From positions 45,890,602 to 45,954,601 of the forward strand of contig OX387185.1 of assembly GCA_947561395.2 (NCBI GenBank): a DNA stretch of 64,000 nt, given 5' to 3'. The translations under genes were made by a program, and so were the position numbers. Source of the stretch: Buxus sempervirens. Lineage: Eukaryota > Streptophyta > Magnoliopsida > Buxales > Buxaceae. Under the pieces are notes generated by a model. The model did not search any database and was not told the DNA's origin. It worked only from the letters and a program-made list of their open reading frames with translations. Positions 553 to 20,560 of this stretch are shown one piece after another. Numbering within the stretch: the stretch's first letter is position 1; the number at the start of each line of letters is the position of its first letter.

Positions 553-3418
553 ATGGCCCGTCTTCGATCAGCTTCTAGGGATCCAGCAGATGAGCCTTCC
601 TCTTCTAGGGTTAGGCGAGATCCTGCTGATGTGGCCACTTCTTCGAGGGCTGAGAGGGATTCTGATTCTGATATCCCAGATTTCCCTTCTGGGGATTCGC
701 GTGAGGCGACCCCAGAGGTATACTCTAACCTTTCTGCAATTTCCTATCCTTTCCCAAAATACATCTTCCTGATTCTTCAATTATTTTCTTTTAGCCGGCT
801 GTTGAGGCTTCTGGCAGAGATAGGAGCCGTAGCAGACGCAGAGCTGGAGGCAGAGATGGAGGCCATGATGAGGGCCATAGAGGAGGCCGCAGAGGGGGCC
901 GTGGCAGAGATGAGGCCAGGACCAGGGTTGAGATCCCTGAGGAGGTGGCTGCCCAGATTAGGGATACCGATCTTCTGCATGGTTTGAGGACTCATCCCTC
1001 GGCGTGCGTTAGGGCGGATATCCCTTTGGAGTATCCGATGTCCCATTATAGAGGGAGCTGGGCCAGCTTTACTAGATTTTTGAGAGCTTGCAGTTCGGCC
1101 TATCGTCGGGAGCTAGGATTGTACGGTTTCGGCATGTTTATCACCATCCCGGACGTTCGCTTGGATCGAGCCCTCATTGCAGCATTATTGGAGAGGTTTT
1201 TCCCAGAGACCTTGAGCTTCCACTTCCCAGATATAGAGATTGGGATCCGGCCTTCTGATTTCACACTCATCACCGGGATTAGGATGATTGGTGATACCAT
1301 TACTGAGATGGCGATGCCGGAGGCCGATGAGATTGCTGGTTATCTTGGATACATTGTGCTGCCTCCTGAGGCATGGGATCGGGGAAGAGCTAGATTGTCT
1401 CTGACATGGTTGAGAGAGACTTTCAGGAGGAGGCAGTTTGGCCAGCTTGCTGCTGGTGATCATGTATTCCCATTCGCCTTTCGATTCCTCTTTCTGTATA
1501 TGATGGGATCCTGCTTCTTCCCAGAGGACACGACTTCAGTTAGTCCTTACTTCTTGAGTCTTCTGGGAGATCTGCAGCGGGCGAGGAGGTATGCCTGGGG
1601 CCCGCTCATATTTGGTACTATTCTGGCTGGCCTGCGCCGATCAGTGAGCGGCCTCTCTACATCCAGAGGGGCTGGAGTTGGGTGCAGGTTCTTCTGGCCC
1701 TTCTTGCAAGTGAACCTTATTTCCCTTCTTTTTCTTTATCTATTTCTGTTTATCACTCATTTTATATTCCTCTGACTATTTTCTTCTTTCTTGCAGTTTT
1801 TTGCTAGGGTTTATATACCCTATTTCCGCCCTACCTCTTCGATGCCTGAGGAGACGTATCCCATGGCACTCAGATGGTGTCATGTAGAGCACGACTCTGA
1901 AAAGAGTCGTCCCAGGTCCGCCCGGGCCCACTTGGACAGGTTGTATCGGTCTGAGGTAATCTTCTTTAATTTCTCTACTTTCTTCTTTTCTTTTCTTCCT
2001 GGACTCGCATATCTGATGTCTTGTTCTGTTTTTCAGCTATTTGTCCCCAGGATGGAGGACATTCATGAGGTGCTGGCCCTGCAGGCTGCGAGAGATGATG
2101 CATTTGTCCCTGACCAGAGACGACAGAGATACCAGTTCTTTATTGGTCAGTTGGGCAGCATCTGGTATTGCGGCGAGCGCTTCTTCTTTCAGCATGTGGG
2201 AGAGCCACGGATTCCTGCCATCCCGCCAGATACTACTCCTCTCTATCCTCCTATGCCTGTTGATCCTGCCCAGTTCTTAGATTGGACTGAGGCAGAGACA
2301 TTATTGGAGGAGGGTGACTATGATGCATGGTTCAGGCGATCTTCTGTTGGGTGCCTCATGTCACCCATGCCTGTCCGTGGCGGAGTCACGGAGATAGGAG
2401 GGGTAGTGATTAGGGCCTACGACACCACGGTATGCTTTCTTCTTTTGTGATCTTCTATTTCTATTTCATCTGCTTTTAGCATTTTTCTGACTTCTTTCTT
2501 CTCTATTTCAGGAGGCTCAGTTGGCAGAGATCAGGTCTCGCTATGCTGATCTAGAGTGCCAGCGTGATGCAGCGATCGCTGAGCGGGACGCCCTCTATAT
2601 CACTATTTCCGATCTCCGGGGGCAGCTAGCCAGAGCCCAGGGCCAGGAGGGTCCATCTGATGCACAGGACCAGGCGGGTCCATCTGATACTCAGGTTAAT
2701 TTCTTCTTTTATTTTCATTCCTGCTTTTGTATTTGTTTGTCTTGTTCTGACTGAATTTTTCTCTTAGTTTCAGGAGTACATGGCTGGTCCCTCTTCACTT
2801 GCTTCACCCGTGCCTATGCATTTCCGGGATGAGGTGTTTTCTGTGGCACGGGTGGAGTTCGTGACATCTCCTAGTCCAGTGGAGGTTCCTGTAGCAGAGC
2901 CTGAGGTCGAGGCTGATATCGTACCTGCTGCTGCTGATGTGCCAGAGTCTACCCCAGTAGCTGAGACGGCTCCTGCTGCATCTACTGATGTTGATATGGA
3001 TTCGGCTATGGACGCCGCTGTGGTAGAGCCTACCGTGGAGACTGCGGTGATGGCGGAGGCTACAGCTGATCCTGTAGAGCCTGGGGTTGATGCTGATGTA
3101 CCTGAGACCTCTGCCCCTGCTAGTCCTACTATGGAGGATATCGAGGAGACGCATGCTGCTGTGGATACGTCCGAGGAGTCTTCCCGTACTGATTCTGATG
3201 TAGATACTTCAGGGTATGTCCCTCCTGATCATCCCACTGCTGGCCTTGTACCTTTATATATGTGGCATGATGTTCAATCTGTTTTGAGCAGGATGCCGCG
3301 TAGCACAGCCCGCAATGTGGTGCGGCATGTCTTTGAGCGCAGGCGATCTTCAGGCAGAGGACGAAGCAGAGGACGAGGCCGTGGCAGTAGGGTCGGACCT
3401 GCATGGTCATTAGATTAG
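553..3418 (+). CDS. Antisense gene 1 of the element: plant mobile domain (PMD)-like protein
   Basis: This is a spliced gene opposite to gag-pol. It starts with MARLRSASRDPADEPSSS at 553. A Gly/Arg-rich stretch follows (about 800-930, RGGRRGGRGR). Then comes a PMD-like core (about 1030-1710) with FGMFITIPDVRLDRALIAAL and PSDFTLITGIRM, more core after the second intron, a short coiled coil (about 2520-2630), an Ala/Val/Glu/Pro-rich acidic stretch (2830-3180) and a basic tail (RGRSRGRGRGSR, about 3350-3400) suggesting nuclear entry or nucleic-acid binding. Short introns with GT...AG borders and T-rich 3' ends lie near 718-793, 1709-1796, 1957-2037, 2431-2513 and 2695-2772. PMD proteins occur as host genes (MAIN/MAIL type) and inside transposons; function in elements is unknown. 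Confidence 0.75.
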
Positions 3419-3634
3419 GATTATTCATATACACTTGTATTTTTTTGTAAAAGTGATGTAAACATTCATGTATATAAAAGAAGTTTGATTTATTTCCATT
3501 TGTGTTCTTTCTTCTTTATTTATAGTATTTATTACCTCATGAATGTTAAACAGGGACATGTGAAGCTTAGGGAAACAAAGGAAATTAAAAGTTCCCATTT
3601 TTTTTGCATTTTTTCGAAGGAACCGTATTTATAC

Positions 3635-3738
3635 TACGAGCAAGCCGTGCCCGTAAAATTACTACGGGCGTACCTTGCCCGTGAATTTTCTACGGTCAGC
3701 CGTGTCCGTAATGTCTATACGGGCAAGCCTTGCCCGTA
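3635..3738. repeat. Hairpin array A (antisense promoter): four palindromes, 27-28 bp period
   Basis: Units start at 3635, 3663, 3691 and 3718. The last is a perfect palindrome, TACGGGCAA-N3-TTGCCCGTA. The array lies between the end of antisense gene 1 and the TATA box of antisense gene 2. The same four-unit module, in the same orientation, occurs in the leader and in the LTR. Confidence 0.9.
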
Positions 3739-3774
3739 ATATAATTACGGAATTTACTGCCTTGCGATTTTTTC

Positions 3775-3782
3775 TATATAAA
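3775..3782 (+). promoter_or_regulatory. TATA box of antisense gene 2
   Basis: TATATAAA lies about 35 bp downstream of hairpin array A and about 90 bp before the likely ATG at 3874. This is ordinary plant promoter spacing and suggests the antisense gene has its own promoter. Confidence 0.6.
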
Positions 3783-3873
3783 CTCCTAGGGAACGTCATT
3801 GTGACACTTTTATTGATTGGAAAACTCCCTGAGCACGTCTTTTCTCGCTTTCCTTGGCTTCTTTGGCGCTTCC

Positions 3874-5734
3874 ATGGCTTCCCCTACGCCGCTTTCTCCT
3901 GCCGTTGAATCTCCTCCTGCAAGACAACCTGTTAGATCAAAACCTCCTAATCTTACCAGGTACAATATTGTGGATTCCTTTTATGATAGATGGGTTAACT
4001 CCATGACCCTTGATGAGGAGATTCGTTGGGATTCTATCCACTTAGGGCACATCCTACACCTCCCTAAAATTCCCTTTAAGTGGGAAATCATTGAAGCTTT
4101 GATAGGCCATTGGGTACCTGAGCTGAATCTCTTCCGTTTTGATGATAAAGAGATGACTCCTACCATAGAAGAGATTGAAACCATCCTTGGCCTTAGATTT
4201 TCTGAAAAAGTTGTGAACCCACCCCTAAAGCTTAGTTATAAAAAAGAGGCTTCCACTTTCTTGGGTATAGGGAAGAAGGACTTAGGAAATTCTGATGCAC
4301 TATTGACCTTGTCCAAGACCTTTTTGACTGAAAAACTTCTGAGGAGTAATGACAAGGACTCTAGGTTTAATGCATTGACCCTGATAGTGGTCAATCAGCT
4401 GCTTTTTCCCCGGGGTGATGACCAGGTTGACTTGGCTCTTATCTCAGTTATCTGTCAGGTTAGGGAACGCGAGAGGTTGGCCCCTATGATCCTAGCAGAG
4501 ATATATCAGGCTCTTACTGATTGTTATTTCAGGAAGAAGAAACGCTTCCTTGCCTGCGCCCCTATCCTACAGGTAAAATATGCATGTATTTTTTTTTTCT
4601 TCTATTTTTTTTATTTATTTTTTCTTCTTTCTATTCTTCCTTTCCTTTTTTTTTTTTTTTTTTTTCTCTCCCTTTTTTTTTTCTTCTTCTCTTTTTTCTT
4701 TCTTCTCTTCTTTTTTTCTTTTTTCTTTCTTTTTTTTTTCTTTTTCTCTCTCCTTTTTTTTTTCTTCCTTCTTCTTCTTTTTTCCTTTCCTTTTTTTTTT
4801 TCTTTTTGGAAATAAATTGAAATACTCCCTTTTTCTGCAGCTTTGGTTGCTTGACCATCTTAGCCAGGTTGAAGAAATAACTCGCCGCTTCTTTCCAAGA
4901 TTGAAAGTTCCTGTTTTGATGAGCAATAGGGGATGTCCTAACATCCAAGGTGGCAAGCAAGGCTGGTTCACTTTCTTGGGTACTCTCCAGGATGATCAAG
5001 TGAGATGGCCTGGCACTTATCAGCCCACTCCAGAGACAGTGATCAGCTTTAGAGATAGAAACTTTCTGGCCCTAGCAGGCTTGAAATCTGCTGTTCTCTA
5101 TCTTCCTTTGAGGGTTCTTCGGCAATTTGGAGCGACTCAGGGAATTATAATTCCCACAGGTTATGAGAACTTTGTAGGGCCACTTACATCAGCCACCATG
5201 GGGCTAAATGCTCAATTAATGAAAGAGTGGTCCTATGTTTGCTTTCTGCGGGGTCCAGTCTTTTCTGAGTCCCATGTGAAGGACTATCACTTCTGGATCA
5301 AGGAACAGGTGCAGAGTCATGCCCCAGTACCAGAGGATCCTCCTGCAGTTCTTCCTCCTACTTATGAGGACATTCTGGAGACAGAAAGGGCAACCCATAA
5401 GCGGCTTCAACAAATATGGGTACGGGAGGCTCAAGAACTTAGGATGAAGGTCCTTGTTCTGGAGAGAAAGCTTGAAGAGCAGAAGTCTGGCCGCATTGCC
5501 ATGGAGAAGAAACTTGAAGAACAAAGGCAGGCTCGTCGCTTTGAAGTCCGTGTGATGCGGAAGAAGTATCAGGATTCCTTGGCTGACCTTAGGGCGTTGA
5601 AGATCAAGCTTTCTTTTTCAGATGAGGTCATCTCCTTTTTGAGTGATCCTGATGCAGAGGGTGCTTCTGGAATCATTGCAACTCAGGCAGCTAGGATTAG
5701 AGAGCTTGAGGAGCAGTTAGGGAATAGGGATTAG
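3874..5734 (+). CDS. Antisense gene 2 of the element: DUF7745/PMD-like protein with C-terminal coiled coil
   Basis: This gene lies on the strand opposite to gag-pol, between pol and the presumed 3' LTR. The likely start is MASPTPLSPAVESPP at 3874; an in-frame ATG also lies at 3817. The first part has a region of the plant DUF7745/PMD-like type (HWVPELNLFRFDD then TPTIEEIETILGLRF). One intron, about 4573-4840, has a GT donor, a C/T-only body and an AG acceptor. The second exon holds further globular sequence and a Glu/Lys/Arg-rich coiled coil (around 5380-5600) ending at 5734. Antisense extra ORFs are known in some Tat elements; their function is unknown. I infer a nuclear or DNA-associated role only from the PMD likeness. 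Confidence 0.75.
4590..4811 (+). repeat. Polypyrimidine tract filling the intron of antisense gene 2
   Basis: About 220 bp of almost pure T with interspersed C (for example tttcttcttctctttttt) separates the two exons. The tract opens on both strands as Lys/Glu-rich or Phe/Ser-rich frames, which are compositional artefacts. Confidence 0.85.
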
Positions 5735-6190
5735 ATTCTTTCATCATTTTTTTTTCCTTTCATTTTTTCCGTACTTTTTTACAAAAACAAACTCCATTAG
5801 TGGAAAGATATTAGATTTAATTCAAAAATAGGTTTTATATTATTGGCCTCAGAATTCTCAGATGCTTATAAAAACAGAAGTTTTATGACAAAGTATTTGA
5901 TTTCTCATCACTGGCCAAAGTATAGTTTTTTTTTTTTTTTTTTTTTTTTTGAAAGCTGATCCAAAACACTTAATCACATATAATTAAAGGAATTAAAATC
6001 AGGTTGAATAATGAAAAGGGTAGTCCAAGCAATAGGGAGAGACCAAATTTGTCTACCCTGTGACCTTTAGAATCATCCCCTAATGATTTTTCCTTCCTGA
6101 TTGGTCTTGCTAATCTGCTCAGTTTCCAGTGCTCATGCTGATTTGAAACTTAGACCCCATGATCAACTCATCCCTTGATTCTTTTCTTCT

Positions 6191-6232
<42 letters not shown>

Positions 6233-6725
6233 CCTTCTTGCCCCTAGTGCCAATTACGGTTTTCACTAGGGTTGGCCTCTGCATTCCATCATCACCCATC
6301 TTACTCTGAAAGTTGAATGAATATACTAAAATCACCGAGGTCTTAATAATAGGACGAAACAAAGGCTAGGTTCGGTTTATGAAAGAAAGGTATTAAATGC
6401 TCAAAATTTTCTAAGTGTGAAAATGGGTCAACTGGACTTACAGTCATGGTGAATTCAATCCCATTCCTCTTCTTTTGTATTTGGCATTTATTTGCCCCTA
6501 TTTTTTCCTTTTTCTTCTTTTTTTTTTTCAAATTTTTTCTTCTTTTTTTTTTTCTTTTTTGCCCCTATTGGCCTTGCCCTTATTGGCTTTGCCCCAGTAT
6601 AAGGCTGTAAGTCCAGTTTGGGTTTAACAAAAAAAATACGAACAGGCTCAAATTGGTTTGACTAGGGATTCAAATTTTGGGATACAAAGAACAATGGCCT
6701 CAGATCCTTTCCTAGTAATATTCAT
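5735..6725. other. Spacer between pol and the antisense gene; no gene
   Basis: This is the convergent gap between integrase and the antisense gene. It contains long poly-T runs (about 5926-5950, 6190-6230, 6520-6560), which read as poly-A on the element strand. No frame of note is present apart from low-complexity ones. Confidence 0.7.
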
Positions 6726-9386
6726 TCATGGAAAATATCTCTTTACTGCATCAAAGTTAATTGGCTCAGGAAAATCCTTCCCATCCATTTCTGTTAAGAT
6801 GAGAGCACCCCCTGATAGAACTTTCTTGACCACATAAGGTCCTTCCCAATTTGGTTTAAACTTTCCACGAGGATCTTCCAAAAAGGGTAAAATCTTCTTT
6901 AATACCAAATTTCCTTCTTGGAAAGTTCTGGGCTTCACCTTTTTATTGTAAGCCCTAGCCATCCTCTTCCGATATATTTGGCCATGACTAAGTGCCTTCA
7001 AACGCTTTTCTTCAATTAAATTGAGTTGATCATGTCTAGACTGTATCCATTCAGCTTCTTCTAATTCTGCTTCCATTAGCACTCTTAGTGAAGGTATTTC
7101 CACTTCCACTGGTAAAACTGCTTCCATTCCATAGACTAAGGAGTATGGGGTCGCTCCTGTAGAAGTTCGAATTGAGGTTCTGTATGCATGTAGAGCAAGT
7201 GGCAGCATTTCATGCCAATCTTTAAAACTCACTACCATCTTTTGAATAATCTTCTTTATATTCTTATTGGCTGCTTCCACTGCCCCATTCATCTTTGGTC
7301 TGTAAGGCGCTGACTTGTGGTGGGTAATCTGAAATTGTTCACACATCTTCCTCATGTCTTTGTTCTTAAGGTTTGAAGCATTGTCTGTTACTATGGCACT
7401 TGGCAAACCATAGCGGCAAATGATGTCATGCTTCAAAAACTTAAGAACATGGCTACTTGTAATGTTTGCATATGAAGCTGCCTCTACCCACTTGGTGAAG
7501 TAATCGATTGCTACAAGTATAAACCTGTGTCCATTTGATGCCTTTGGAGAGATCATGCCAATGACATCTATACCCCACATAGAAAAAGGCCACGGAGATG
7601 TCATACTGTGTAATTCACTTGGGGGTGCATGCTTGTTATCCGCGTACACTTGGCATAAATGACACCTTTTAACGTGCATATAGCAATCATGCTCCATAGT
7701 CGACCAGTAATATCCCAATCGCAGAATCTTCTTGGCAAGCATATGCCCATTCATATGGGGTCCACACACTCCTCCATGTACCGTTTCAACTATCCTTTCT
7801 GACTCAGTCTTTGCAACACATCTAAGTAGTATATCATTGTGTGATCTTTTGTACAAATGCCCACCACTTAGTAAGAACTGTCCTGCCAGCCTCTGTATTG
7901 TTCTTTTCTCTGTAGAGGTGACATTTTCTGGTAAGCTCCGATCATTTAGGAAATTCTTAATGTCTTGAAACCATGGTACTTCTTCTTCTGGGGTTTCTTC
8001 TAGAACAAGGCAGTAGGCTGGTTCATCTCTGACTTCAATTTCTAATGGTCTAATATCAACCCCTTCTGGCATACTGACCATTGAAGCCAATGTTGCCAGA
8101 GCATCTGCAAACTGGTTTTTGGCCCTTGGCATATAATTGAAGGAAATTCGAGTAAACTTGGTGCTTATTTCTTCCAAATACTGGTGATAGGGGATCAATT
8201 TGTGATCCTTGGTTTTCCATTCACCAGTTGTTTGGAAGATGATAAGACTCGAATCCCCATATACGTCAAGTTCCTCTACTTCATGGTCTAAGGCTGCTTG
8301 TAACCCAATTATGCATGCTTCATACTCTGCTATATTGTTCGTGCATTGGAACCTTAACTTCACTGCGATTGGGATATGTGCCCCATCTGGCTTGATCAAT
8401 ACAGCTCCTATTCCATTTCCATTCATATTGGCGGCCCCATCAAAAAACATTTGCCATGAGCTTTCGCCTTCTTCCTCTTCAGCAAACAGGATTGCCTCAT
8501 CAGGGAAGTTGGTCTTTAAGGGTTGGTATTCTGGTAAAGGGTGTGCAGCTAAGTGATCTGCAATGGCTTGACCCTTAATGGCCTTTTGTGTGATATAGGT
8601 GAGGTCAAATTCAGAGAGTAACAACTGCCACTTTGCTGTTCTGCCAGTTAAAGCCGGTTTCTCAAATAGATACTTCAAAGGGTCCATGCGGGATATCAAT
8701 AAGGTGGAATGACTAAGGAAATAGTGCCTTAGTCTCTGAGTTGCCCATACTAAAGCACAACAAGTCTTCTCTAAGGGGGAATACTTTGCTTCATATTCTG
8801 TAAATTTCTTACTCAGGTAGTAAATCGCCCTCTCCTTTCTGCCTGTATCGTCATGCTGTCCTAAGACACACCCCATTGATGTCTCCAAAACAGACAAGTA
8901 TAGAATTAATGGCCTTCCTGGAGTTGGTGGTACTAGCACAGGTGGGTTCAATAAGTACTCCTTTATTGTGTCAAAGGCTTCTTGGCAATCATCATTCCAG
9001 ACTGTCGGGTTATTCTTTCTTAGAAGTTTGAAAATTGGTTCACAGATAGCGGTGAGCTGTGCTATGAACCGGCTTATGTACTGAATCCTCCCAAGAAAAC
9101 CCCGAACTTCCCTCTCGGTTCTGGGTGATGGCATTTCAATGATGGCTTTAGCTTTAGCTGGGTCGATCTCAATTCCCCTTCTGCTTACTATAAAACCCAA
9201 TAATTTTCCTGATGTAGCCCCAAAGACACACTTAGCAGGGTTAAGCCTTAGACTGTATTTCCTAAGCCGGTCAAATACCTTCTTCAAGTTGATCAAGTGG
9301 TCTTCTTCCTCACATGATTTGGCTATCATATCATCCACATAAACCTCCATCTCCTTATGGATCATATCATGGAACAAGGCTGTCAT
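6726..9386 (-). CDS. pol: RT C-terminus - RNase H - archaeal-type RNase H - integrase
   Basis: This 886-codon frame continues pol. It holds the RT catalytic YVDD (near 9340), the RT thumb, a first Ty3-type RNase H with QLLLSEFDLTY and GQAIADHLA, and a second RNase H (FFDGAANMNGNGIGAVL, then NNIAEYEA and YGDSSLI, then ADALATLAS) of the archaeal type that marks the Tat lineage. The integrase follows, with an HHCC finger (H...H...CHLC), the DDE core (WGIDVIG; VTDNASN; GAVEAANK) and a C-terminal WEGPYVV-type domain. No chromodomain follows. It ends about 1 kb from the convergent antisense gene at 3874-5734. Confidence 0.92.
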   Translation of the reverse strand: MTALFHDMIHKEMEVYVDDMIAKSCEEEDHLINLKKVFDRLRKYSLRLNPAKCVFGATSGKLLGFIVSRRGIEIDPAKAKAIIEMPSPRTEREVRGFLGRIQYISRFIAQLTAICEPIFKLLRKNNPTVWNDDCQEAFDTIKEYLLNPPVLVPPTPGRPLILYLSVLETSMGCVLGQHDDTGRKERAIYYLSKKFTEYEAKYSPLEKTCCALVWATQRLRHYFLSHSTLLISRMDPLKYLFEKPALTGRTAKWQLLLSEFDLTYITQKAIKGQAIADHLAAHPLPEYQPLKTNFPDEAILFAEEEEGESSWQMFFDGAANMNGNGIGAVLIKPDGAHIPIAVKLRFQCTNNIAEYEACIIGLQAALDHEVEELDVYGDSSLIIFQTTGEWKTKDHKLIPYHQYLEEISTKFTRISFNYMPRAKNQFADALATLASMVSMPEGVDIRPLEIEVRDEPAYCLVLEETPEEEVPWFQDIKNFLNDRSLPENVTSTEKRTIQRLAGQFLLSGGHLYKRSHNDILLRCVAKTESERIVETVHGGVCGPHMNGHMLAKKILRLGYYWSTMEHDCYMHVKRCHLCQVYADNKHAPPSELHSMTSPWPFSMWGIDVIGMISPKASNGHRFILVAIDYFTKWVEAASYANITSSHVLKFLKHDIICRYGLPSAIVTDNASNLKNKDMRKMCEQFQITHHKSAPYRPKMNGAVEAANKNIKKIIQKMVVSFKDWHEMLPLALHAYRTSIRTSTGATPYSLVYGMEAVLPVEVEIPSLRVLMEAELEEAEWIQSRHDQLNLIEEKRLKALSHGQIYRKRMARAYNKKVKPRTFQEGNLVLKKILPFLEDPRGKFKPNWEGPYVVKKVLSGGALILTEMDGKDFPEPINFDAVKRYFP

Positions 9387-12300
9387 GCCCTCTGGTAGGT
9401 TGCCCCAGCGTTCTTAAGTCCAAATGGCATGACAGTGTAGTGGAAGGTACCCCAAGGGGTGATAAAGGCTATCTTCTCTTGGTCTTCCTTAGCCATCTTA
9501 ATCTGATTGTACCCAGAAAACCCGTCCATGAATGAGAACAGGCTATGTACAGCGGTGTTATCCACCAAGATATCTATGTGTGGAAGTGGAAAATCATCCT
9601 TTGGACTTGCCTTATTCAAATCTCTATAATCTACGCACATTCTGACCTTTCCATCCTTCTTTGGTACCGGCACTATATTTGCAAGCCATTCGGGGTATGT
9701 GGACACTGCTAAGAATCCAGCTTGGAATTGCTTAACCACTTCATCTTTAACCTTCAATGTCCCCTCAGGTTTTAGCCTTCTCAGTTTCTGCTTAACTGGC
9801 TTAGAGTCTGGTAGAATGGGTAGCCTGTGCACCACCATATCTGTGTCTAACCCCGGCATATCCCGATACGACCATGCAAACACATCTTCATAATCAGCCA
9901 AAAATCGTATCATTTCATCCCGCTGTACCTCAGATAGGCATACCCCAATCTTTACTACTTTTGGGTCATCTTCGGTCCCTAGGTTGATTGATATGGTCTC
10001 TTCGATATTGGGTTGGACCCCCTTTTCATGACGCTCTAATTTATATGTGATTTCTTTTGGAACGTCGTCTTCTTCGTCCTCGGTCTCTTCTTCAACCCCC
10101 ATTAGGTCAAAGTCGAGCTCAAGGTCGAAGTCATATTCATCCTGATCAAATTCCGTTTGCTTATATGGTTCATAAATGGTTTGGACCTTTTTGAAAAATT
10201 TATCTTTTCTAGAAAAAACTGAAAACTCTTTTTGTGTTTTTTGAGAGCCTTCTACAAAATCTTTCCCTGAAGACGAAGGCTCATTAAAGCCTTCAGGAAA
10301 AGGGCATTCCACTAATGGAGTTTTTTTTTTGGAAGCCATGTCTGTTTGCCAAACAAACGCGGCTTCAAAAGTAAGGGGAGTTTCCTCCCAATTATTCAGA
10401 ATGAAAGAATCTGGGGCAGGGATACAAGCCTGCTCCTCGAGCTCATGGTCTGCATCAGAAATCACCAATACTGGGTGAGTTGCATTGCCTGCTTCTTCGG
10501 TAGGGCCAGTTCCAGATGGAACTTCTACTGCAGCCCAGTCAATAAAAGGTAGCTCCTCTGCTACTTTTTCTTGGTTGCCTTCTGTCATGGCAAAGAATGC
10601 CCCTATGTCCTCAGAAAAATCCTGCTTTTGTTCGGCTTGTGGCCCAGGCCCACCAGATGCTTGTGGAGGTGGAGGTGGAACATATGGTTGTATTGTGGAG
10701 GGTTTGGGTTTCTGGAATGGGTTGACATTGTGGTATGGAGGTTTAGACTGATCCTCAGGAGGAGACAGCTGAATCAGGTGAGACAGCTTAGGAAAAGTTT
10801 CCCTGATGTGCGGGAATTTCATAGATTCTATCTGCCCCTGACTTTTCCATTTCCTTGGCTTGGACCCCAATCCTGCTCTGTGAACCATCTTCTTAACCTG
10901 TACTGGTTCTATCCTTCCTTGCAGGTTAACCCCCAGACCTTTTCCAGGGTGAAAGTGGTATTTTTCTAGCACATTTTTGACCATTTTTTCAGCACAGGTC
11001 AATTTTCCTTCTTTTTCCTGATACCCCCCAGGTATATAATTCACAGCTTCAAATTGAAAAGAGTGAAATGCCATCTTATCTGCTGTCATTTCCGTGTTAA
11101 TACAGGGTACATCAGGGGACCACATGGGGGGAACCAAGTTTTCCGCTAGGACGGTAATCACCTTTTGCCCTCTAATATACTTGACTCTTTGGTGGAGGGT
11201 AGATGGTATAGCCCGAGCTGTATGAATCCACGGCCTTCCTAGGAGTAGGTTGAAGGCTGCAGGTATATCCATCACTTCAAATGTGATGTTGAAAATATAC
11301 GGTCCAATTGTGACCGGCAGTTCAATCTCCCCTAGGGAGTGTGTTTTAGAGCTGTCAAACGCTCTTATAATTCTTCCATTTTGTTTTATTTTGTTTCGCT
11401 CCAGATTGAGCTTAACAAAGGTTACTAATGGGCAGACATTGAGGGCTGACCCATTATCAATCAAGACCCGGGCTATCATGCAGCCCTTACTGAGCACAGC
11501 AATGTGCAATGGATCCACATGATGGTATCCTGCTGGACTAATTTCCGTTTCAGAAAAAGTTATAACATTATGAGATAATATTTGCCCAACCATCCGGCCT
11601 AGTTGGTCTGGTTCAATGTTTTTAGGCACATGGGCCCCCTGGAGTATCCTTAACAAGGAGTCCCTATGTTTTTCTGAATTTAACAATAGGCCCAGTATTG
11701 AGATCTGGGCAGGGACTTTGTTCAACTGTTCGATGACATTGAACTCACTCTTTTTTATTACCTTAATGAGGTCAGCAGCCTCACTGTCAACTACCTGAGG
11801 GGTATCTTCCCCTACCTTGGCCTTTCCTTTATTTTTTCCTTCTTCTTTATCCTTCTCTGTTTCTTTCTGTTTTTCTTCCCCACCTACACACTTTCCTGAC
11901 CTCATCATAAGGTTTACTTCTTCCTTGCTTTCAACTGCAGGGCATGTAGTGGTAAATGCTTCACTGTAGTTCCATGGTACAGCCGATTCAATGTAGGAAG
12001 GCTTAGGGACATTCACCACCAATGGGGGAAGTTTGGACTTGGCAATGGAAGTCTGAGTAATAGGAACATTAACAACCAATGGAGGAAGTTGTTTTGGTTG
12101 GGGGTTTGCAGAAGTGACTGATGCACTAAGGGGGTCACGATTTATGACCAATGGTGGCCTAGACTGAATGGGCGGAGTAAAAGTGGATGGATGGCAATTA
12201 ATGACCAAAGGTGGCTTGGCGATGTTCATTTGGGCCATGAGGGATGAGACCCGGTCCAAAGATGAGCTAATGTTCTTTGCAGCACCATCATTCCCCTTTG

Positions 12301-14005
12301 AAATCATGTTTATTTCTTTGCCTTCACTTCTCCTGTCAAAATATACTTTGACTGTTGTCCCTATGGGAGCAATTAATTGAGATGGGTCAAAGGTTATTTT
12401 GTCAGAAGAGATGACTCCTATTTGTCCAATATCTGTTCTTGGAGGATTGGAAGCCCCTGTATTGAAAGACAGGGTATTCTGGTCTAGTAAATCCTGAATG
12501 GCATGTTTCAAAGGCCAGCACTTGTCTGTAGGGTGCCCAGGTGCACCCATATGGTAATCACAAGTGGTGGAGGGGTCAAAATTTCTCCCCTTAGATGCAT
12601 TCGGATTAGGTTCTCTTAAGGTGATATACCCTCCTTGCAATAAAGTGGGCAGCAATTGAGAGGGAGTCATTGGAATAGGGGTAAAAACCCTATTTCTCCT
12701 TGCTGCAAAATAGGCATCCCTTTCCTCTTTGGTAAAAACCCTTTTTTGGTCTGAAGATGCTACTGGAACATTAACCCTCATGGGGGCCTGGGAAGGTGGA
12801 GATGGAGTAGGAAAATGAGCAGGTACGTTGATTTGTATGGGCTTGTTAGGGCCAGATGGTGGCTGTACCATGTTTACTTCGCCCTCCTTGTTCCCATTCT
12901 TTTTTGTTCCGCTTCCTTTCTTTAGGTTGGGGTCATGCTGGCTAACCATGGCAGAGTGGTCAATTATCTTGCCTGACCTTATTCCATCCTCAATTCGGTC
13001 AGCCACCTGAACCAAAGCTGCAAAATTAGTGGTGGTCTGACCCACCAAGTGACTGTAGAATGGTTGACCCAAAGTGCTTATGAAAGTAGAAATCATTTCC
13101 TGTTCTAGCATGGGTGGCCTGACCTGAGAAGCTGTCTCCCTCCACCTCTTGGCATATTGCCTTACAGTCTCCTCCCTTCCTTTGCTCATTCTCATGACGT
13201 CGTACCTATCTGGCATGATCTCTGAATTGAACCGGTATTGAGCCAGGAAGGCATCGGCTAGGTCCTTCCATCTTTTGATCTTTCCATGGTCCAGAGTGGC
13301 GAACCATCTTAATGCGGTTCCAGTCAGGCTCCTTTGGAAAAGTTGGATTAGAACACCTTCATCCTGCCCAAACTGGCATAGGGCACCACAGTATAACTTT
13401 AGATGGCTCATGGGGCAACCAGTGCCATCATACTTGTCCAAGTCTGGGCACTTAAACTTAGCCGGCAGGTTAACATTGGGGTATAGGCACAGGTCTTCAA
13501 AATTGGTGCCTCCAAAATTGTTTACCCCTTTGACTTCCCTAAGTTCATCTTGGATCATTTCTAACTTATGCATGAACTTTCTTTCAACCTCTTCCCTTAT
13601 CCTTTCCTTTTCCATAGCCTTGTTTGATTCAGCTGTCTCATCCCTGGTCAGTATAGGTTCAGGGGTGGGTTCATAGACGGGTTCAGGAGTTGGTTGCACT
13701 GGAGGTGGAACATTGGCTTGGGGTGGAGGTGTAGGGTTGGATGCGGATGCCTGGTTCTGGGCCTGCATTTGTTGGGCCTGCATTTGTTGGGCCTGCACTT
13801 GTTGGGCCTGTACTGACAGTATGTTTTCTAGCATTCGGGCTAGTCCTGCCACTTGTTCTTGGAGTAGAACGACATCTGGATGAGGAGCATCAACTTCATC
13901 TTCAATGGGGTTCATGGCTCGAGCTCTTGATCTGGTTACAGGAGCTATGATTGCAAGTGTGTTAGTACCTGGATACAAGATAAAGGAAAAGATATCAATG
14001 CTCAA
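9383..14005 (-). CDS. gag-pol: gag - protease - N-terminal part of RT (Tat lineage)
   Basis: This 1540-codon frame encodes the retroelement polyprotein. A Gln-rich N-terminus is followed by a retrotransposon gag core (around 13000-13400, with RWKDLADAFLAQYR and AKRWRETASQVRPP) and a CxxHx5Hx4C zinc-knuckle-like motif (about 12521-12566, CDYHMGAPGHPTDKC). The aspartic protease has the DNGSALN active site (about 11434-11463). A glycine-rich G-patch-like stretch (GKGLG, about 10900-10940) follows, then an acidic linker and RT blocks (VRMCVDYRDLNKASPKDDFP, TPWGTFHYTVMPFGLKNAG). Translation may start at 14005 or at the inner ATG at 13915. It continues into the next frame; the polyprotein as a whole has about one break. 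Cytosolic virus-like-particle function is known for the family. Confidence 0.9.
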   Translation of the reverse strand: MSIDIFSFILYPGTNTLAIIAPVTRSRARAMNPIEDEVDAPHPDVVLLQEQVAGLARMLENILSVQAQQVQAQQMQAQQMQAQNQASASNPTPPPQANVPPPVQPTPEPVYEPTPEPILTRDETAESNKAMEKERIREEVERKFMHKLEMIQDELREVKGVNNFGGTNFEDLCLYPNVNLPAKFKCPDLDKYDGTGCPMSHLKLYCGALCQFGQDEGVLIQLFQRSLTGTALRWFATLDHGKIKRWKDLADAFLAQYRFNSEIMPDRYDVMRMSKGREETVRQYAKRWRETASQVRPPMLEQEMISTFISTLGQPFYSHLVGQTTTNFAALVQVADRIEDGIRSGKIIDHSAMVSQHDPNLKKGSGTKKNGNKEGEVNMVQPPSGPNKPIQINVPAHFPTPSPPSQAPMRVNVPVASSDQKRVFTKEERDAYFAARRNRVFTPIPMTPSQLLPTLLQGGYITLREPNPNASKGRNFDPSTTCDYHMGAPGHPTDKCWPLKHAIQDLLDQNTLSFNTGASNPPRTDIGQIGVISSDKITFDPSQLIAPIGTTVKVYFDRRSEGKEINMISKGNDGAAKNISSSLDRVSSLMAQMNIAKPPLVINCHPSTFTPPIQSRPPLVINRDPLSASVTSANPQPKQLPPLVVNVPITQTSIAKSKLPPLVVNVPKPSYIESAVPWNYSEAFTTTCPAVESKEEVNLMMRSGKCVGGEEKQKETEKDKEEGKNKGKAKVGEDTPQVVDSEAADLIKVIKKSEFNVIEQLNKVPAQISILGLLLNSEKHRDSLLRILQGAHVPKNIEPDQLGRMVGQILSHNVITFSETEISPAGYHHVDPLHIAVLSKGCMIARVLIDNGSALNVCPLVTFVKLNLERNKIKQNGRIIRAFDSSKTHSLGEIELPVTIGPYIFNITFEVMDIPAAFNLLLGRPWIHTARAIPSTLHQRVKYIRGQKVITVLAENLVPPMWSPDVPCINTEMTADKMAFHSFQFEAVNYIPGGYQEKEGKLTCAEKMVKNVLEKYHFHPGKGLGVNLQGRIEPVQVKKMVHRAGLGSKPRKWKSQGQIESMKFPHIRETFPKLSHLIQLSPPEDQSKPPYHNVNPFQKPKPSTIQPYVPPPPPQASGGPGPQAEQKQDFSEDIGAFFAMTEGNQEKVAEELPFIDWAAVEVPSGTGPTEEAGNATHPVLVISDADHELEEQACIPAPDSFILNNWEETPLTFEAAFVWQTDMASKKKTPLVECPFPEGFNEPSSSGKDFVEGSQKTQKEFSVFSRKDKFFKKVQTIYEPYKQTEFDQDEYDFDLELDFDLMGVEEETEDEEDDVPKEITYKLERHEKGVQPNIEETISINLGTEDDPKVVKIGVCLSEVQRDEMIRFLADYEDVFAWSYRDMPGLDTDMVVHRLPILPDSKPVKQKLRRLKPEGTLKVKDEVVKQFQAGFLAVSTYPEWLANIVPVPKKDGKVRMCVDYRDLNKASPKDDFPLPHIDILVDNTAVHSLFSFMDGFSGYNQIKMAKEDQEKIAFITPWGTFHYTVMPFGLKNAGATYQRA

Positions 14006-14204
14006 TTAATCTCATTCTCATGCCTAAGTATGCCTATGTGCAAGCTGGGTGAACACGAGTTTGGATTTTTCTTTATTTGCTTCTTTTTCTTTTTCTTTTT
14101 TTATATTTATTTTTTTTATTTTTTTATTTTTTTTTTATATTTTTTTTTTATTTTGAATTGAATTGTTGGAATATTCTAGGGCTTCCAACAGGTCCCACAA
14201 AAGA

Positions 14205-14242
14205 GAGAAAGGTCTGAAATTCAAAGGCTTTCAGAGGCCCGG

Positions 14243-14280
<38 letters not shown>

Positions 14281-15303
14281 AAAAAGGTCTGAAATTCAAA
14301 GGCTTTCAGAGGCCCAGGGATATTTTTGGAAAAGGTCTGAAATTCAGAGGCTTTCAGGGGCCCGGGGATTTTTGATAAAAGTCTGAAATTCAAAGGCTTT
14401 CAGAGGCCCAGGGATGTTTTGATGAAAGTCTGAAATTCAAAGGCTTTCAGAGGCCCAAAAGGAAAAGGTCTGAAATTCAAAGGCTTTCAGAGGCCCAAAA
14501 GTTCTGAAATTCAAAGGCTTTCAGAGGCCCAAAAGAAAAAGGTCTGAAATTCAAAGGCTTCCAGAGGCCCAAGGATATTTTTGGAAAAGGTCTGAAATTC
14601 AGAGGCTTTCAGAGGCCCGGGGATTTTTGATAAAAGTCTGAAATTCAAAGGCTTTCAGAGGCCCAGGGATGTTTTGATGAAAGTCTGAAATTCAAAGGCT
14701 TTCAGAGGCCCAAAAGGAAAAGGTCTGAAATTCAAAGGCTTTCAGAGGCCCAAAAGTTCTGAAATTCAAAGGCTTTCAGAGGCCCAAAAGAAAAAGGTCT
14801 GAAATTCAAAGGCTTCCAGAGGCCCAAAAGTTCTGAAATTCAAAGGCTTTCAGAGGCCCAAAAGAAAAAGGTCTGAAATTCAAAGGCTTTCAGAGGCCCA
14901 AAAGTTCTGAAATTCAAAGGCTTTCAGAGGCCCAAAAGAAAAAGGTCTGAAATTCAAAGGCTTCCAGAGGCCCAAAAGTTCTGAAATTCAAAGGCTTTCA
15001 GAGGCCCAAAAATTCTGAAATTCAAAGGCTTTCAGAGGCCCAAAAGAAAAAGGTCTGAAATTCAAAGGCTTTCAGAGGCCCAGGGTTTTTTTGGGAAAAA
15101 GTCTGAAATTCAAAGGCTTTCAGAGGCCCAGGAAAAGTCTGAAATTCAAGGCTTTCAGAGGTCCAGGATTTTTTGAGAAAAAGTCTGAAATTCAAAGGCT
15201 TTCAGAGGCCCAGGATTTTTTGAGAAAACGTCTGAAATTCAAAGGCTTTCAGAGGCCCAAGAGTTTTGAAAAAGTCTGAAATTCAAAGGCTTTCAGAAGC
15301 CCA
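14205..15303. repeat. Tandem repeat array in the leader, about 26 units
   Basis: A core of about 28 bp (TCTGAAATTCAAAGGC then TTTCAGAGGCCC) recurs about 26 times with spacers of about 5-20 bp, so the period is about 33-48 bp. Each core holds the inverted pair CTGAAA-N9-TTTCAG and could fold. A larger block of about 255 bp is itself duplicated: a ggatatttttggaaaagg spacer recurs at about 14318 and 14572. A poly-T run interrupts the start. Amplified tandem repeats are known in Retand-type elements. Confidence 0.92.
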
Positions 15304-15496
15304 AGGAACCTTTCTCTATTTTTTTTTCTTTTTAATTATTTTGTTTGTTTTTTTTTTTTTTTGTTTTTTTTTGTTTTTTTTTTTTGAAGCATTTTATTCA
15401 AACTTGTTTCCCTTTATCGTTATTTAAAGGTTAAAAGAATATTTTAGTGGGAAAAACTGATTAAAGTTGATTATTCCGAGAAAACCGTATACACAG

Positions 15497-15601
15497 TACG
15501 GTCCAGCCCTGCCCGTATTTAAATTACGAGCAAGCCGTGACCGTAGGCAATCCACGGGCGAGCCTAGCCCGTATAAACAATACGGGCAAGCCCAGCCCGT
15601 G
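15497..15601. repeat. Hairpin array B (leader): four palindromes, 28 bp period
   Basis: Units start at 15497, 15525, 15553 and 15581, exactly 28 bp apart. Each is a 21-bp imperfect palindrome of the TACGGGC...GCCCGTA type. Unit 2 matches unit 1 of array A in all but one base, and unit 4 matches array A unit 4 closely. The array lies between the tandem repeats and the LTR. Confidence 0.88.
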
Positions 15602-16856
15602 TATTAAATGCGGTTTTACGGAACCCTGTTATATTTTTCCAGTTTTTATATGGTTTGATCACTTTCATTGTTCATCCAAACGTACGGTTCACCCAGTACA
15701 GAGCTTCTAAACTGTCCCAAAGTGGACTTTGGCCTATTTGTAAAACACATGCTAGGGAGGGCACATGTACCCTCCAAATTGACATCATACTCAAGAATTT
15801 GATATCCTTTTGTTGCCTCTTGTGTGTACATAGGGTAGGATTGATTCTAAACAGAGTTAGAAACTCTTCCTATGGGCTGCACCAACTTTTAGCAAATATG
15901 CATATTTTGGGACCAATTTTATCCCAAACCCATGGGTACCATGACACCCCTATGACATGAAAATAATGCAAAACAATAGGATTACCTTGTTACCTTGTTT
16001 ACCTTGAATATAGCATCCGCATTATGCCCTGGTTTGTAAGCCATGCACACGGCCTTCCCACAATCATACAAACCCATATTCCCACGTAATTGTGTACTTT
16101 AGCCAAAAACGTGTAACTCCACCTTCAAGCGTAGGGGTTTTGGGTTTTGGCTTAATGGCAACTTAGCACTCAAGCCTAGTGATGACCAGAATCCCAGATC
16201 CACATTATCATCACATCATTAGCTCAAAGTTCTAAGGTGAATGTTTTTACTTTCGCTTTCCGAAGTATCGACCTCGTTGCGCCAAGCTACACACATTCGG
16301 GTTCAACTTCCTATAGGTTAAGGGTAGGCTGTGTAAAAGTAAAAAGTGCACAGTGCATTGTAAAAATAAGGTGCATTCACAACGTCCCAAACCCTTGCCA
16401 CTCTTTTCGCAGCCATGCATAAACAAACCAAGGCATAATAGGAAAGCATATTTAAAATAAACAAGTAAATAAAGCAATCCTATAGCACCCAAAACTTGCT
16501 CATAAAAAAATCATCTATCATGCAAACATATGATCATGTTATACACCCAAATCATCATGGAGATCATGCTGCAAATTAAAACATGCTATCATAAAAATAT
16601 AGCAAGAAATAAGCATATTTCAGCAAAACGGACCTCCCCTACGCATGTTTGTAGAAACAATCCTATAGATCAAAATTAAGCATGTTTCTACCCCCATGAA
16701 TTCTTAAGCAATAATTCAGATTTAAAATATACTCAACATGCTTAAGAACACCAAACAGCAAGCAAAACAAAGACATGCTAAAAACACAAAATAGCAAGCA
16801 AATCAAAATTTCAAAAAAAACATGAACTAAAACACCAAAAGGCTCAAATCCACAAG
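15602..16856 (-). other. Leader between primer site and repeat arrays; no gene seen
   Basis: This A/T-rich part of the element's 5' untranslated leader has only short frames of 60-100 codons that resemble nothing I recognise. No Ogre-type ORF1 is present here, which points to a Retand-like rather than a classical Ogre layout. Confidence 0.6.
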
Positions 16857-16874
16857 TCCCCAGCAGAGTCGCCA
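16857..16874 (-). other. Primer binding site
   Basis: The minus strand reads TGGCGACTCTGCTGGGGA two bases inside the LTR end. This begins with the TGG expected for pairing with a tRNA CCA end. From memory it matches the tRNA-Arg type site reported for Ogre-like elements; the tRNA identity is not verified here. Confidence 0.8.
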
Positions 16875-17835
16875 GTTGTGAGACATGGGAAAAAATCAAA
16901 TCTACATGATTTCCTCAATCATCACACGGGATTAAAATAAAACAAAGAGTCGCCACCATTCAATTCAGGTGTGAATGGACACCAAAATATCAAATAAGCA
17001 CAAAAGGCAATTTTAGGGCAAAATATCCCTCCTAAAAAAAACAACCAGAGATGGGTAAGGGGATTAAGTTATGAACAGGGGAAGGTGTTAGGCACCCCTA
17101 TTCATCCACACAAGGTGGTTGCCAGGTATTTGTTCATGTTAAATAAAGGAAAAAGCTTGCTATAAAAATCACACAAAATCACAAAAAAGGCAAAAATATA
17201 TGGTTTTTTCATATGAATAATCTGATTGATCCAGAACTATCAAACATGATCATACCATTCCTAGGGTTTCATGATCAAAATAAAATTGAGATAAAATCCA
17301 ATAAAATCAATTTAAAGTGAAAAATCCAAAAATCTGGCTTCAAGTCAAAATTCTAGAAATCTAGAAAAATATGATTTTTATAAAATATTTCAAAATTGAA
17401 CTTGAACAGTCCAGGATATAGATAAAGCCCAAATTTCACATTAAATCTGAAAATAAAAACCAAAAATACCCACGTTGATGAAAAACACCAAAAAGGGAGA
17501 ATTTAGACCGTAGGGTCTTCTCTCAATAATGAAAAACAATTTAAAAACCATCTCATGAAACCCTAGAATTTATTTTCAGGCTTCTGGATTCAGATCTACC
17601 ATATTGATCATGATAAATCCAAGATCTTAGCCTAAAACCACAAAAATCACGAAAACAGTGCTATAGGTGCAAAAGTGGCAAAAATCCAAATTTTGGCGAA
17701 AATAGGGGATCTCATGCTATAAACATCATGGATTCATGTTATTCATTCAGATATATCATAAAAAGCATTAAAACATGATCACGATATTTAAAACAGCCAC
17801 ATCTCACAGATTTGAGCACATGGGGGTCTACCCTA

Positions 17836-18118
17836 CGGATCCACCTGTTCTCTTTTCCCCTAGTTCTCTCTTCACGTTTTACGGCTAGAGAGACTCTTGA
17901 GGTACTTAGAGATAGGTTTGGTTACACAAACACAATCAAAGGCCTTATTCTATGAAAAAACAGATATGGGGTTCTATTCTAGGGATCCACCTGTTCCCCT
18001 TTCCCCTAGTTCTCTCTTCACGTTTTACGGCTAGAGAGACCCTTAAGGTACTTAGAGACAAGTTTAGGAATACAAAAACAGATATGGTCTTATTCTACAG
18101 CAATAGAGATGATCCTAT
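17836..18118. repeat. Tandem duplication inside the LTR (period 146 bp)
   Basis: Two adjacent copies begin with GGATCCACCTGTTC at 17837 and 17983. They share the stretch with CCCCTAGTTCTCTCTTCACG and the following ACGGCTAGAGAGAC, and diverge by scattered substitutions towards their ends. Confidence 0.8.
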
Positions 18119-18273
18119 TACATCTAGAATTGAAGACAGAAAATAAAAAGGGATAGGGGACTTACCTGGATTGAGCAGGCAGAGCAGCGGGGATTCCTTT
18201 CTCTTCTCTTGGAGCTTCTTAGAATTCCTTGACTTCAAAATTTTCGTGGCCCTTAGCTAGAAGAATGAGCCTC

Positions 18274-18281
18274 TATTTATA
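18274..18281 (-). promoter_or_regulatory. LTR TATA box
   Basis: TATAAATA on the minus strand, about 400 bp into the LTR and about 200 bp downstream of the hairpin array, in a position fitting the U3 promoter of the element. Confidence 0.6.
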
Positions 18282-18486
18282 GACACACCCAGGGGTATGG
18301 TTGGTCCAGAAGGATATAGTCTGATCCTCAGGATAGAGAGAAAGTTGGAGATAATGCCCATCCATAGTGGCTTCAGCGAATAAAATACTTAATTCGCTCG
18401 TTTAAAGATATATTGGACTTCAAATAAAGCTCGGAAATCGAGAGGAGGATAAAACTTGCACGTGTCTTTAATGCCCGTAAATGATT

Positions 18487-18590
18487 TACGGTCCAATGGT
18501 GACCGTATTGGTACTACGGGCGCGCCTGCCCGTAGATATTGTGCGGGCGAGATAGGCCCGTGAATCCAATACGGGCAAAGCCTGTTCATT
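18487..18590. repeat. Hairpin array C (LTR U3): four palindromes, 27-28 bp period
   Basis: Four 20-21 bp imperfect palindromes start at 18487, 18515, 18542 and 18570. The type is TACGGGC-N(6-7)-GCCCGTA, with short A/T-rich spacers. They lie about 90-190 bp inside the outer LTR end, upstream of the LTR TATA box. The last unit is decayed in its right arm. The same module occurs at 15497 and 3635. Confidence 0.85.
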
Positions 18591-18679
18591 CTATTTTTAG
18601 GCTTTTTTAACCTGTTTTAAGCTCTAATTACATGTCTTTATTATTTTCTCATTTGGTAGTGCAATTTGGGGTGTCTACA

Positions 18680-20560
18680 TGGCCGGGCGGTTATCTTTCT
18701 GGAACAGAAGACTAAAGATGGCCAACCGCCATGAAGATCGTGCAACCGTCAAGGATCGGCTATAAAATACACAACTTCGAAGAACTCAATGACACAATCC
18801 ATCCAACCACAACCGGTTATAATATTATTTTGATCATCCGTGATCTTTATCCCCTCTCCTACACTATAGTCAGAAGGATAAACTAGGACTCCTCTCACTG
18901 TTTCTAGTCGCAGTAACACCTTAGACCCTTCTTTACTCAGATCAACACCAGAATCCTGCCACCGGAGGGTAAATTGAGGCCGCCCCTGACTCACAGTCTG
19001 TGTCCACAGAATCCCGAGCAGCCGGTCCCGAGACTCGCTCTGATCAAGCCAGGTGACTTGTGTATTTTCGGTTAAACAGCAATCCGAGGTGAATCCCCTA
19101 AATTGGCTTTGCTAGCAGCCGCCCCCATCTTCCTGTGCTTATACCCGTTTACGGCTATAAGACCAGAACAGGCCGGTCCTGCAAGCCCTGTCAGTTTTCT
19201 TTTTACTTTTTGTTTCCTTTTTGGGGATTATCTGTTGTCGCTTTCGGCCATCGGCCAATTTTATAATAAAAGAGTTGTGTGCCATTAGTTGCTTTCGCTT
19301 TCAAACACTTACAAAAACCCAAACGAAAACCGAACCCCTAGTCTTCATATTATCGCCTGACCGGTTTTATTACAGGTGACTTGTAATACAACTGAACCGA
19401 TCCCGGTTTAGATTCGGAACAGGTGCTCGGGGTCAGGACCCGACCCGAAATCATTGTATCAAACGATACTAGCACGCCCGCGTAGAGACACATCATCAAC
19501 ACCACCACGTGTCCACACCGGCCCAATTTCGGAGCAACAGATTCCAACAATATTGCAATTCTAATCCTCAGATGCAACATATGCACATAGATATGGCAAA
19601 TCTAACTCTTATGTTGGTGATGATATGAAGTTTGGTATCTTTTGTCGTATCATTCAATCTTCCTCGTCATGGATAGGACTAAGGAAATTTATTTTTCAAT
19701 TTAACTAGTTCATCGCTCTTCATTTCATGATACTAATTTTCAATTTTCTTTTTTCTTTTTTTTTCTAATCAAGATTTTCTATTTTGAAACGTATATACAT
19801 ACAACCATTGAGTTCCCATGGTACCATTACACTGCGCGTAAATCCATTGAATGTTTGTCAAGAATGGCAAACTAAGAATTCATGACTTCGGAAATTCTAA
19901 TTAGACCAAAATAAAAATAATATATAACGAGGATGAAAATTTGTTTTCCCCTAATCATGCTTGAATTTTAAACCAAAAGGACTAAATAAGAGTTTGAAAC
20001 CAGTGCTCAGCTGTAGATGATGAGCAAGAAACCAGTTCAAGGGATGGGACGCTTAGCAGGAGGCCTCCTGGCCTCCTAGATTGAGATAAGGATAGTATTT
20101 GAGTTGCATAGTAGACTCCCCAGTTAGATGATGGAGTAGTGGCTACTGTTTCTCCACCTAATAGTGGATGGGACGTCGTTGCTCTATCAAATTAAGAATG
20201 ATATATAGTAAAAAGTGACTAGATTTCGTCGTTAGGAGGACATCTATTAACCTGCAAAAATAGCTAATAAGATGGTGTAAAAGAAGAGATTTTAACGGTA
20301 CGTATACTAGAATTTTAAAGAAAGCAGCTACTGTTTCTCTTTTCCTTTTTTTTTTTTCCGGCCGAAGTGGGAATTCCCGGCCCAAGAGTGGAAGTTTATC
20401 ATAAGACTGTTTCTAATGGAGGAAGATGCAATTCGGAAAAGCAAGATAGTCTTACAAGAGACTACTCAAGCAGGGAAGGAGACCTCACATGGTCCACGGG
20501 CTAATCTTGTGGATCACGAAGAAAAGAAACATGTAAACATAAAAGGCCTTGATTTAAGTA
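18680..20560. other. Flank of the LTR element; short unrecognised open frames
   Basis: This is host sequence abutting the LTR. On the minus strand 19067-18749 is open for about 100 codons (IKITDDQNNIITGCGWMDC) without a recognised family. Shorter frames at 19103-19288 and 20416-20607 on the plus strand look non-coding. No complete gene is supported. Confidence 0.4.

Follow-up and report, generated by a model that had tools for sequence, protein, structure and literature searches.

VANC21 and VANC6 of the Arabidopsis VANDAL (Mu-like) DNA transposons are described as acting on dense arrays of a motif that shifts between related elements, with a trans effect on an unrelated element; binding and demethylation are proven for these proteins, which carry DUF1985/DUF287 domains (PMC5735166). 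In the Retand- and Grande-type Tat elements, regulatory roles have been proposed for antisense genes (PMC11963269, PMC7264820), and a TRP28 domain is given for the Retand antisense genes in 97% of clusters (PMC11963269). The host PMD proteins MAIN and MAIL1 have been tied to the DOWN promoter motif and to positive expression, direct binding being unproven in that account (PMC9899485). VANC systems and the extra open reading frames (ORFs) of sunflower elements are mentioned elsewhere, in the passages concerned without arrays of the kind described below (PMC12844716, PMC11728184). No established function is attached to the antisense genes found in large plant retrotransposons, or to the PMD proteins that many transposons encode. 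Here we analyzed a stretch of 64,000 nucleotides from Buxus sempervirens (GCA_947561395.2, contig OX387185.1, positions 45,890,602 to 45,954,601 of the forward strand), hereafter the window, in which a long terminal repeat (LTR) retrotransposon carries phased arrays of short dyads. The reading we favor is that these dyads are DNA sites for a dimeric factor, probably encoded by the elements, whose specificity has diversified.

All arrays of the window are part of this single element, which lies on the minus strand (C6:45887536-45909280, ~21.7 kb) and carries two antisense genes with PMD or DUF7745 domains, gene 1 (aPMD1) and gene 2 (aPMD2). Array sites were found in the U3 of both LTRs, in the leader, and in the promoters of gene 1 and gene 2. 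When the window was searched for TACGGGC-N7-GCCCGTA with up to three mismatches, 10 matches were obtained compared with 0.30 expected from shuffling. Nine of these are inside three arrays; the remaining one, at 18459, is next to the LTR array and in its 28-bp phase. The N6 form was found at 3691 and 18515 inside the arrays; its one other match, at 54030, is weak and unrelated (expected 0.35). The arrays are genuine and greatly exceed chance expectation, and their positions agree with those in a preliminary description of this DNA. The gene 1 promoter array (3621..3752) consists of five outer dyads starting at 3621, 3649, 3677, 3704, and 3732, and the leader array (15483..15615) of five starting at 15483, 15511, 15539, 15567, and 15595. 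In the LTR U3 array (18473..18576), four outer dyads start at 18473, 18501, 18528, and 18556, with weaker neighboring half-sites at 18459 and up to 18590. The gene 2 promoter array lies just beyond the window edge (L017 3655-3758, corresponding to C6 45889690-45889793), upstream of that gene. Four units per array, all in the same orientation, had been described; the arrays are present and phased, but of the fourth LTR-array unit (18570-18590) only the left half is good, and orientation is without clear meaning for palindromic units. The TATA box of gene 1 (TATATAAA, plus strand, 3775..3782) begins 36 bp past the last strong half-site, in keeping with the ~35 bp previously given, and the LTR array is ~190 bp from the LTR TATA box (TATAAATA, minus strand, 18274..18281). 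The gene 2 array precedes a 5'-leader-like stretch, and a clear TATA box was not seen there. A promoter at the leader array was considered and rejected, as the plus-strand TATA-like sequence seen in the window is not preserved in the other leader copies compared.

Within the arrays, the half-sites TACGGGC and GCCCGTA take turns every 14 bp, and the spacers between them are alternately inner (GC content 0.58) and outer, A/T-rich (0.25). Among distinct neighboring half-site pairs in the loci compared, 122 of 137 pairs across the outer spacer were spaced at 14 bp, one at 15 bp, and none at 13 bp; of 118 pairs across the inner spacer, 83 were spaced at 14 bp and 17 at 13 bp, the rest being scattered in both cases. 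Three half-site classes were distinguished, TACGGGC (class 1), TGCGG(A/T)C, and TRCGGTT (the third class). Among the matches listed for each, the outer gap was exactly 7 bp in 50 of 50 for class 1, in 45 of 50 for TGCGG(A/T)C, and in 49 of 50 for the third class. The inner gap of class 1 was 7 bp in 48 of 50 and 6 bp in two, whereas in the 50 matches listed for the third class it was 2 bp in 12, 6 bp in one, 7 bp in six, 10 bp in one, 17 bp in nine, 18 bp in 18, 27 bp in two, and 28 bp in one. As the outer gap is nearly constant and the third-class inner gap variable, the unit is a dyad over the A/T spacer, GCCCGTA-N7-TACGGGC. The palindrome TACGGGC-N-GCCCGTA, earlier taken to be a hairpin unit, is thus the gap between two units. 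In the window family, dyads follow one another at 28 (or 27) bp. The third-class dyad-to-dyad gaps of 7, 17-18, and 27-28 bp proceed in steps of approximately one helical turn; this is only suggestive, because the frequent gap of 2 bp does not fit and the listed places are related copies.

The 676-Mb genome was searched with the dyad patterns, using exact counts per strand and the reversed pattern as control. The outer dyad with any gap of 0-30 bp was found 11,324 times (control 89), and the inner pairing 7,962 times (control 121); the inner N7 form with at most one mismatch gave 18,299 matches (control 78). The TGCGG(A/T)C and TRCGGTT classes were represented by 1,792 (control 16) and 3,802 (control 17) matches, respectively. 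Sixteen array loci (L051-L066), chosen by hand among the matches listed and all from the first part of contig C1, were compared with reference pieces, and all 16 match pieces of two retrotransposon groups, A or B. Group A is that of the window element (LTR, leader, gene 1 or gene 2 promoter pieces). The first 15 loci, also on C1 and several of them overlapping, likewise cluster with A or B, L015 in part only. The module is therefore not restricted to the window family, since the second group also carries dyads. Nine LTR pairs of group B among the matches listed are 10.5-14.9 kb apart, seven of them near 12 kb. The B-type LTRs contain an additional palindrome-like sequence, TACGGGACGCGTGTCCCGCCGTA or close variants, between two half-site groups (L046 ~1288-1317, with equivalents in L003, L008, L010, and L011). 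In L066 (C1:9443800-9446300), an A-type LTR and a gene 1 promoter array are only ~1.1 kb apart, suggestive of a rearrangement or deletion inside the element.

Divergence of half-sites, spacers, and flanks was determined in copies grouped by identity over the aligned piece of ~400 bp. In LTR copies of 85-95% identity (n = 21), it was 0.019 in half-sites, 0.14 in inner spacers, 0.257 in outer spacers, and 0.056 in flanks, and in the corresponding leader copies (n = 11) 0.007, 0.068, 0.218, and 0.057. For LTR copies below 85% (n = 10), the values in the same order were 0.114, 0.371, 0.48, and 0.188; for those of 95-100% (n = 5) 0.004, 0, 0.036, and 0.03; and for leader copies of 95-100% (n = 6) 0.003, 0.024, 0.107, and 0.024. 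The gene 1 promoter was represented by five copies only: one gave 0.043, 0.222, 0.2, and 0.051, another 0.086, 0.222, 0.371, and 0.162, and three near-identical copies 0, 0.062, 0, and 0. Half-site divergence is below that of the flanks, from slightly to about eightfold, and that of the spacers is usually above it. The module and its phase are also retained in other copies, as checked in related loci. The two arms of class-1 dyads change independently of each other, as the preliminary description had noted when it reported arm changes unmatched between halves: joint variants at position 6 show no excess over the outer dyad (7 vs. 8.0 expected) and a weak excess over the inner pairing (11 vs. 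6.8). Because the half-sites are kept, the spacers usually change faster than the flanks, and the arms lack covariation, the arrays are very probably the footprint of sequence-specific DNA binding, and the earlier preference for protein binding over RNA folding holds. Special retention of CpG cytosines in half-sites was not seen in the LTR (353/359 in half-sites vs. 232/239 in others), the leader (168/170 vs. 113/119), or the gene 1 promoter (53/55 vs. 36/39).

Two other explanations bear on these data. Hairpins formed by RNA or single-strand DNA, with a role in how the element RNA is packaged, dimerised, or folded, would agree with the perfect inverted repeats of the half-sites and with the joint change of both arms between classes, and one LTR subgroup is defined by the symmetric variant TACGGAC/GTCCGTA. 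However, RNA hairpins are unsupported within class 1, where the outer dyad lacks a covariation excess, hairpins would not call for linkers of exactly N7, and a symmetric dimer would account just as well for the arm changes between classes; we regard this explanation as very improbable. Functionless repeats arising by tandem duplication and conversion would fit the array spacers, which evolve faster than the flanking DNA and in blocks, so that the arrays appear to turn over. The outer spacer AATGATT is common to the window and the more distant LTRs L012 and L013, as if swapped between lineages. Neutrality is nevertheless hard to reconcile with half-sites that persist beside changing spacers in several distinct locations and across deep divergence, or with an exact geometry common to classes with different half-sites, and it too is given very little credence.

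The upstream DNA of eight DUF7745 loci was surveyed. In L073, where the exon-1 protein is 95% identical to aPMD1, the half-site is TACGGGC. L074 (76% identical) has TGCGG(T/A)C with unchanged geometry, and L071 and L072 (both 69%) have TRCGGTT, degraded in L072. Identity to aPMD1 thus drops in step with class, from 95% in the same class to 76% and 69% in the others. No dyads were found within ~900 bp upstream of L067, L068, L069, and L070 (35 to 44% identical to aPMD1), of which L067, L068, and L070 match the B element leader and have the DUF7745 gene in sense. The LTR ends of two class-variant elements were located by expected distance. TGCGG(A/T)C dyads were identified in the LTR and before gene 2 in L076 (beside L074), and TRCGGTT dyads at the same two places in L075 (beside L071), so that both variant elements carry their own half-site in the LTR and in both antisense promoters. 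L077, the expected LTR site of the L072 element, contained neither a dyad nor any sequence matching the reference pieces. The window element has A at position 2 in 33 of its 36 half-sites, compared with G in 21 of 22 for the C8 element, and C at position 7 in 30 of 36, compared with T in all 24 for the C11 element (the difference by element has a Fisher p of ~1e-11, the sites not being independent). In these three elements, the half-site is uniform within an element and different between related elements, in line with the VANC-like pattern that had been suggested. Two more third-class elements are indicated by position alone, where DUF7745 matches at C1:10600809 and C1:14559809 have a third-class dyad ~355 bp upstream and further third-class repeats approximately -5.4, +12.2, and +16 kb from that dyad; in the window element, the arrays of the 3' LTR, leader, and 5' LTR are at -5.1, +11.9, and +14.9 kb. 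At C1:13863043-13863091, C1:15081027-15081075, and C1:17180966-17181070, TGCGGTC dyads lie next to TGCGGTT dyads in 28-bp phase, and some arrays therefore mix two half-site classes.

Exon 1 of aPMD1 matched DUF7745 with 75.7 bits (Pfam cut-off 26) and PMD with 45.5 bits (34.9), and aPMD2 matched PMD with 65.7 bits (34.9). No match to DUF1985/DUF287 was obtained in the antisense ORFs at an E-value of 0.01, nor to TRP28 (PF04195) in the five antisense ORFs scanned at the same threshold. The best 150 of 5,830 candidate copies of aPMD1 exon 1 are 98-100% identical, and 145 of these 150 are without internal stop. Compared with L066, the most diverged copy compared, aPMD1 differs at 20 of 79 synonymous and 8 of 278 non-synonymous sites, a ratio of non-synonymous to synonymous change (pN/pS) of 0.11; four closer copies, with very few changes, gave pN/pS of 0 to 0.15. 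aPMD1 is under purifying selection. The end of exon 2 has, by eye, a coiled-coil-like stretch that would suit dimerisation.

On the evidence of these sequences, the arrays would be platforms for a sequence-specific factor acting as a two-fold symmetric dimer, with one dimer per dyad NNCCGYA-N7-TRCGGNN spanning the A/T-rich 7-bp core. The factor most likely comes from the element itself, as the product of one of its two antisense PMD-type genes and probably the DUF7745 protein aPMD1, and its binding sites would be those at the promoters of both antisense genes, its own included, and in the U3 of the LTR and the leader. Once bound, it would promote expression of the element or shield it from silencing in an autoregulated, VANC-like manner, and related elements would have changed the half-sites of all arrays along with the factor. 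We consider it likely that the factor is encoded by the elements, and evenly balanced whether it is the DUF7745 protein itself; a positive effect is proposed tentatively, by analogy. As a whole, an element-encoded dimeric factor with a positive or anti-silencing role appears the best explanation, and one we lean toward slightly.

Several points weigh against this explanation. L078, which by its distance was taken to be the LTR belonging to the L067 element, is of B type (83%) and carries class-1 dyads, and the DUF7745 protein of this element is only ~38% identical to aPMD1; class does not therefore simply follow DUF7745. In the single B element read (L046, L047), a gag ORF was present, and no pol or DUF7745 match was obtained in the two longest ORFs scanned. 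Uniformity across locations was compared in three elements only, and recombination or conversion between the arrays of one element could also produce it. The leader array has no conserved TATA box alongside. A sequence search of PDB with both aPMD1 exons gave no match up to an E-value of 1, and the structure predicted for exon 1 from the single sequence had a mean predicted local distance difference test score (pLDDT) of 39, at which a DNA-binding fold is not demonstrable. With regard to group B, these elements may borrow a group A protein in trans; alternatively, class may be determined by aPMD2 or some other factor, or the host may contribute a factor.

If host transcription factors are responsible, the dyads would be host sites exploited by the elements, and the antisense proteins would be unrelated to them. 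The class-1 dyads that group B has in common with group A, despite a distant or unseen DUF7745 gene, are in favor of this, as is the B LTR array, which ends 14 bp ahead of the LTR TATA box, a usual activator position. On the other hand, this one genome contains three half-site classes, at corresponding positions and uniform within each element, so that a host factor would need to differ by element, and the sampled arrays (C1 loci) were found only in two retrotransposon groups. A host factor is therefore regarded as rather unlikely. The same element-encoded factor could instead act as a repressor that limits expression and copy number. The gene 1 array closely precedes the TATA box of the gene to which it belongs, a layout that fits negative as well as positive feedback, but VANC, the closest tested parallel, is reported as anti-silencing (PMC5735166), and we consider repression improbable. 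Returning to the element-encoded dimeric factor, it is conceivable, though short of probable, that each LTR-retrotransposon lineage has a private cis-trans code, in which an antisense PMD/DUF7745 protein would read its own NNCCGYA-N7-TRCGGNN dyads at the LTR, leader, and antisense promoters. Specificity would then have changed at least twice, in all arrays together, and gag-only elements would be served in trans.

The remaining features of the window element are those of a large LTR retrotransposon, which from its layout is probably of the Tat type. The 5' LTR (16877..18679, minus strand, 1803 bp) and the 3' LTR (C6:45887536-45889338, left of the window) are 99.83% identical, and the element is bordered by TGGCC at either end. 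An internal LTR duplication of 115 bp with 87% identity (17820-17934 and 17966-18080) also occurs in related LTRs, judged from double BLAST matches. The gag-pol region (6726..14005, minus strand) consists of the ORFs 9383-14005, with gag and the start of reverse transcriptase, and 6726-9386, with the remainder of reverse transcriptase, RNase H, and integrase, so that the reverse transcriptase match of the window copy is divided over two ORFs. aPMD1 (3874..5734, plus strand) has two exons, 3874-4572 and 4841-5734, with splice sites inferred by eye, and its DUF7745/PMD match spans both. aPMD2 (553..3418, plus strand) has several exons, with the PMD match in the ORF 945-1775 and the start at 553 inferred by eye. 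In the leader, tandem repeats of a AAAGGTCTGAAATTCAAAGGCTTTCAGAGGCCC unit (14208-15300) occupy the space between the array and gag. The flank adjoining the 5' LTR (18681-19437) is 86% identical to DNA beside the B-type LTR in L010.

Dyad arrays of this kind were not found in the open-licence literature searched. The three natural specificity classes provide a defined DNA target and permit a direct binding experiment. Retroviral Tax and Tat act via host factors or an RNA hairpin; the likeness to them would be that of an element-encoded regulator on repeated U3 sites, and the difference is that the sites here are also at antisense promoters. The antisense genes of Retand are described as mostly TRP28 (PMC11963269), unlike the PMD/DUF7745 genes found here, and no cis target array is named for the Retand and Grande genes in the passages that treat them (PMC11963269, PMC7264820). 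As with MAIN and MAIL1, PMD proteins are tied to a short motif, but in that account it is a single host motif and not an element-borne dyad array (PMC9899485). The closest resemblance is to VANC as described in PMC5735166: dense short motifs lie in the non-coding DNA of the element (here the LTR, leader, and antisense promoters), the motif varies between related elements and changes together, and effects can extend to unrelated elements that share the motif. Unlike VANC, whose proteins carry DUF1985/DUF287 and belong to DNA transposons, the present elements are LTR retrotransposons with PMD/DUF7745 genes, and while the VANC motifs are depicted in one orientation without a fixed dyad, the half-sites here alternate around an exact 7-bp core (PMC5735166). 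If the explanation offered here is true, it would assign a function to transposon PMD proteins, help to explain the activity of some families in methylated plant genomes, and imply that non-autonomous elements share the same code. It would also represent a self-recognition and anti-silencing system in retrotransposons separate from VANC, and self-encoded sequence-specific control would then extend from DNA transposons to LTR retrotransposons.

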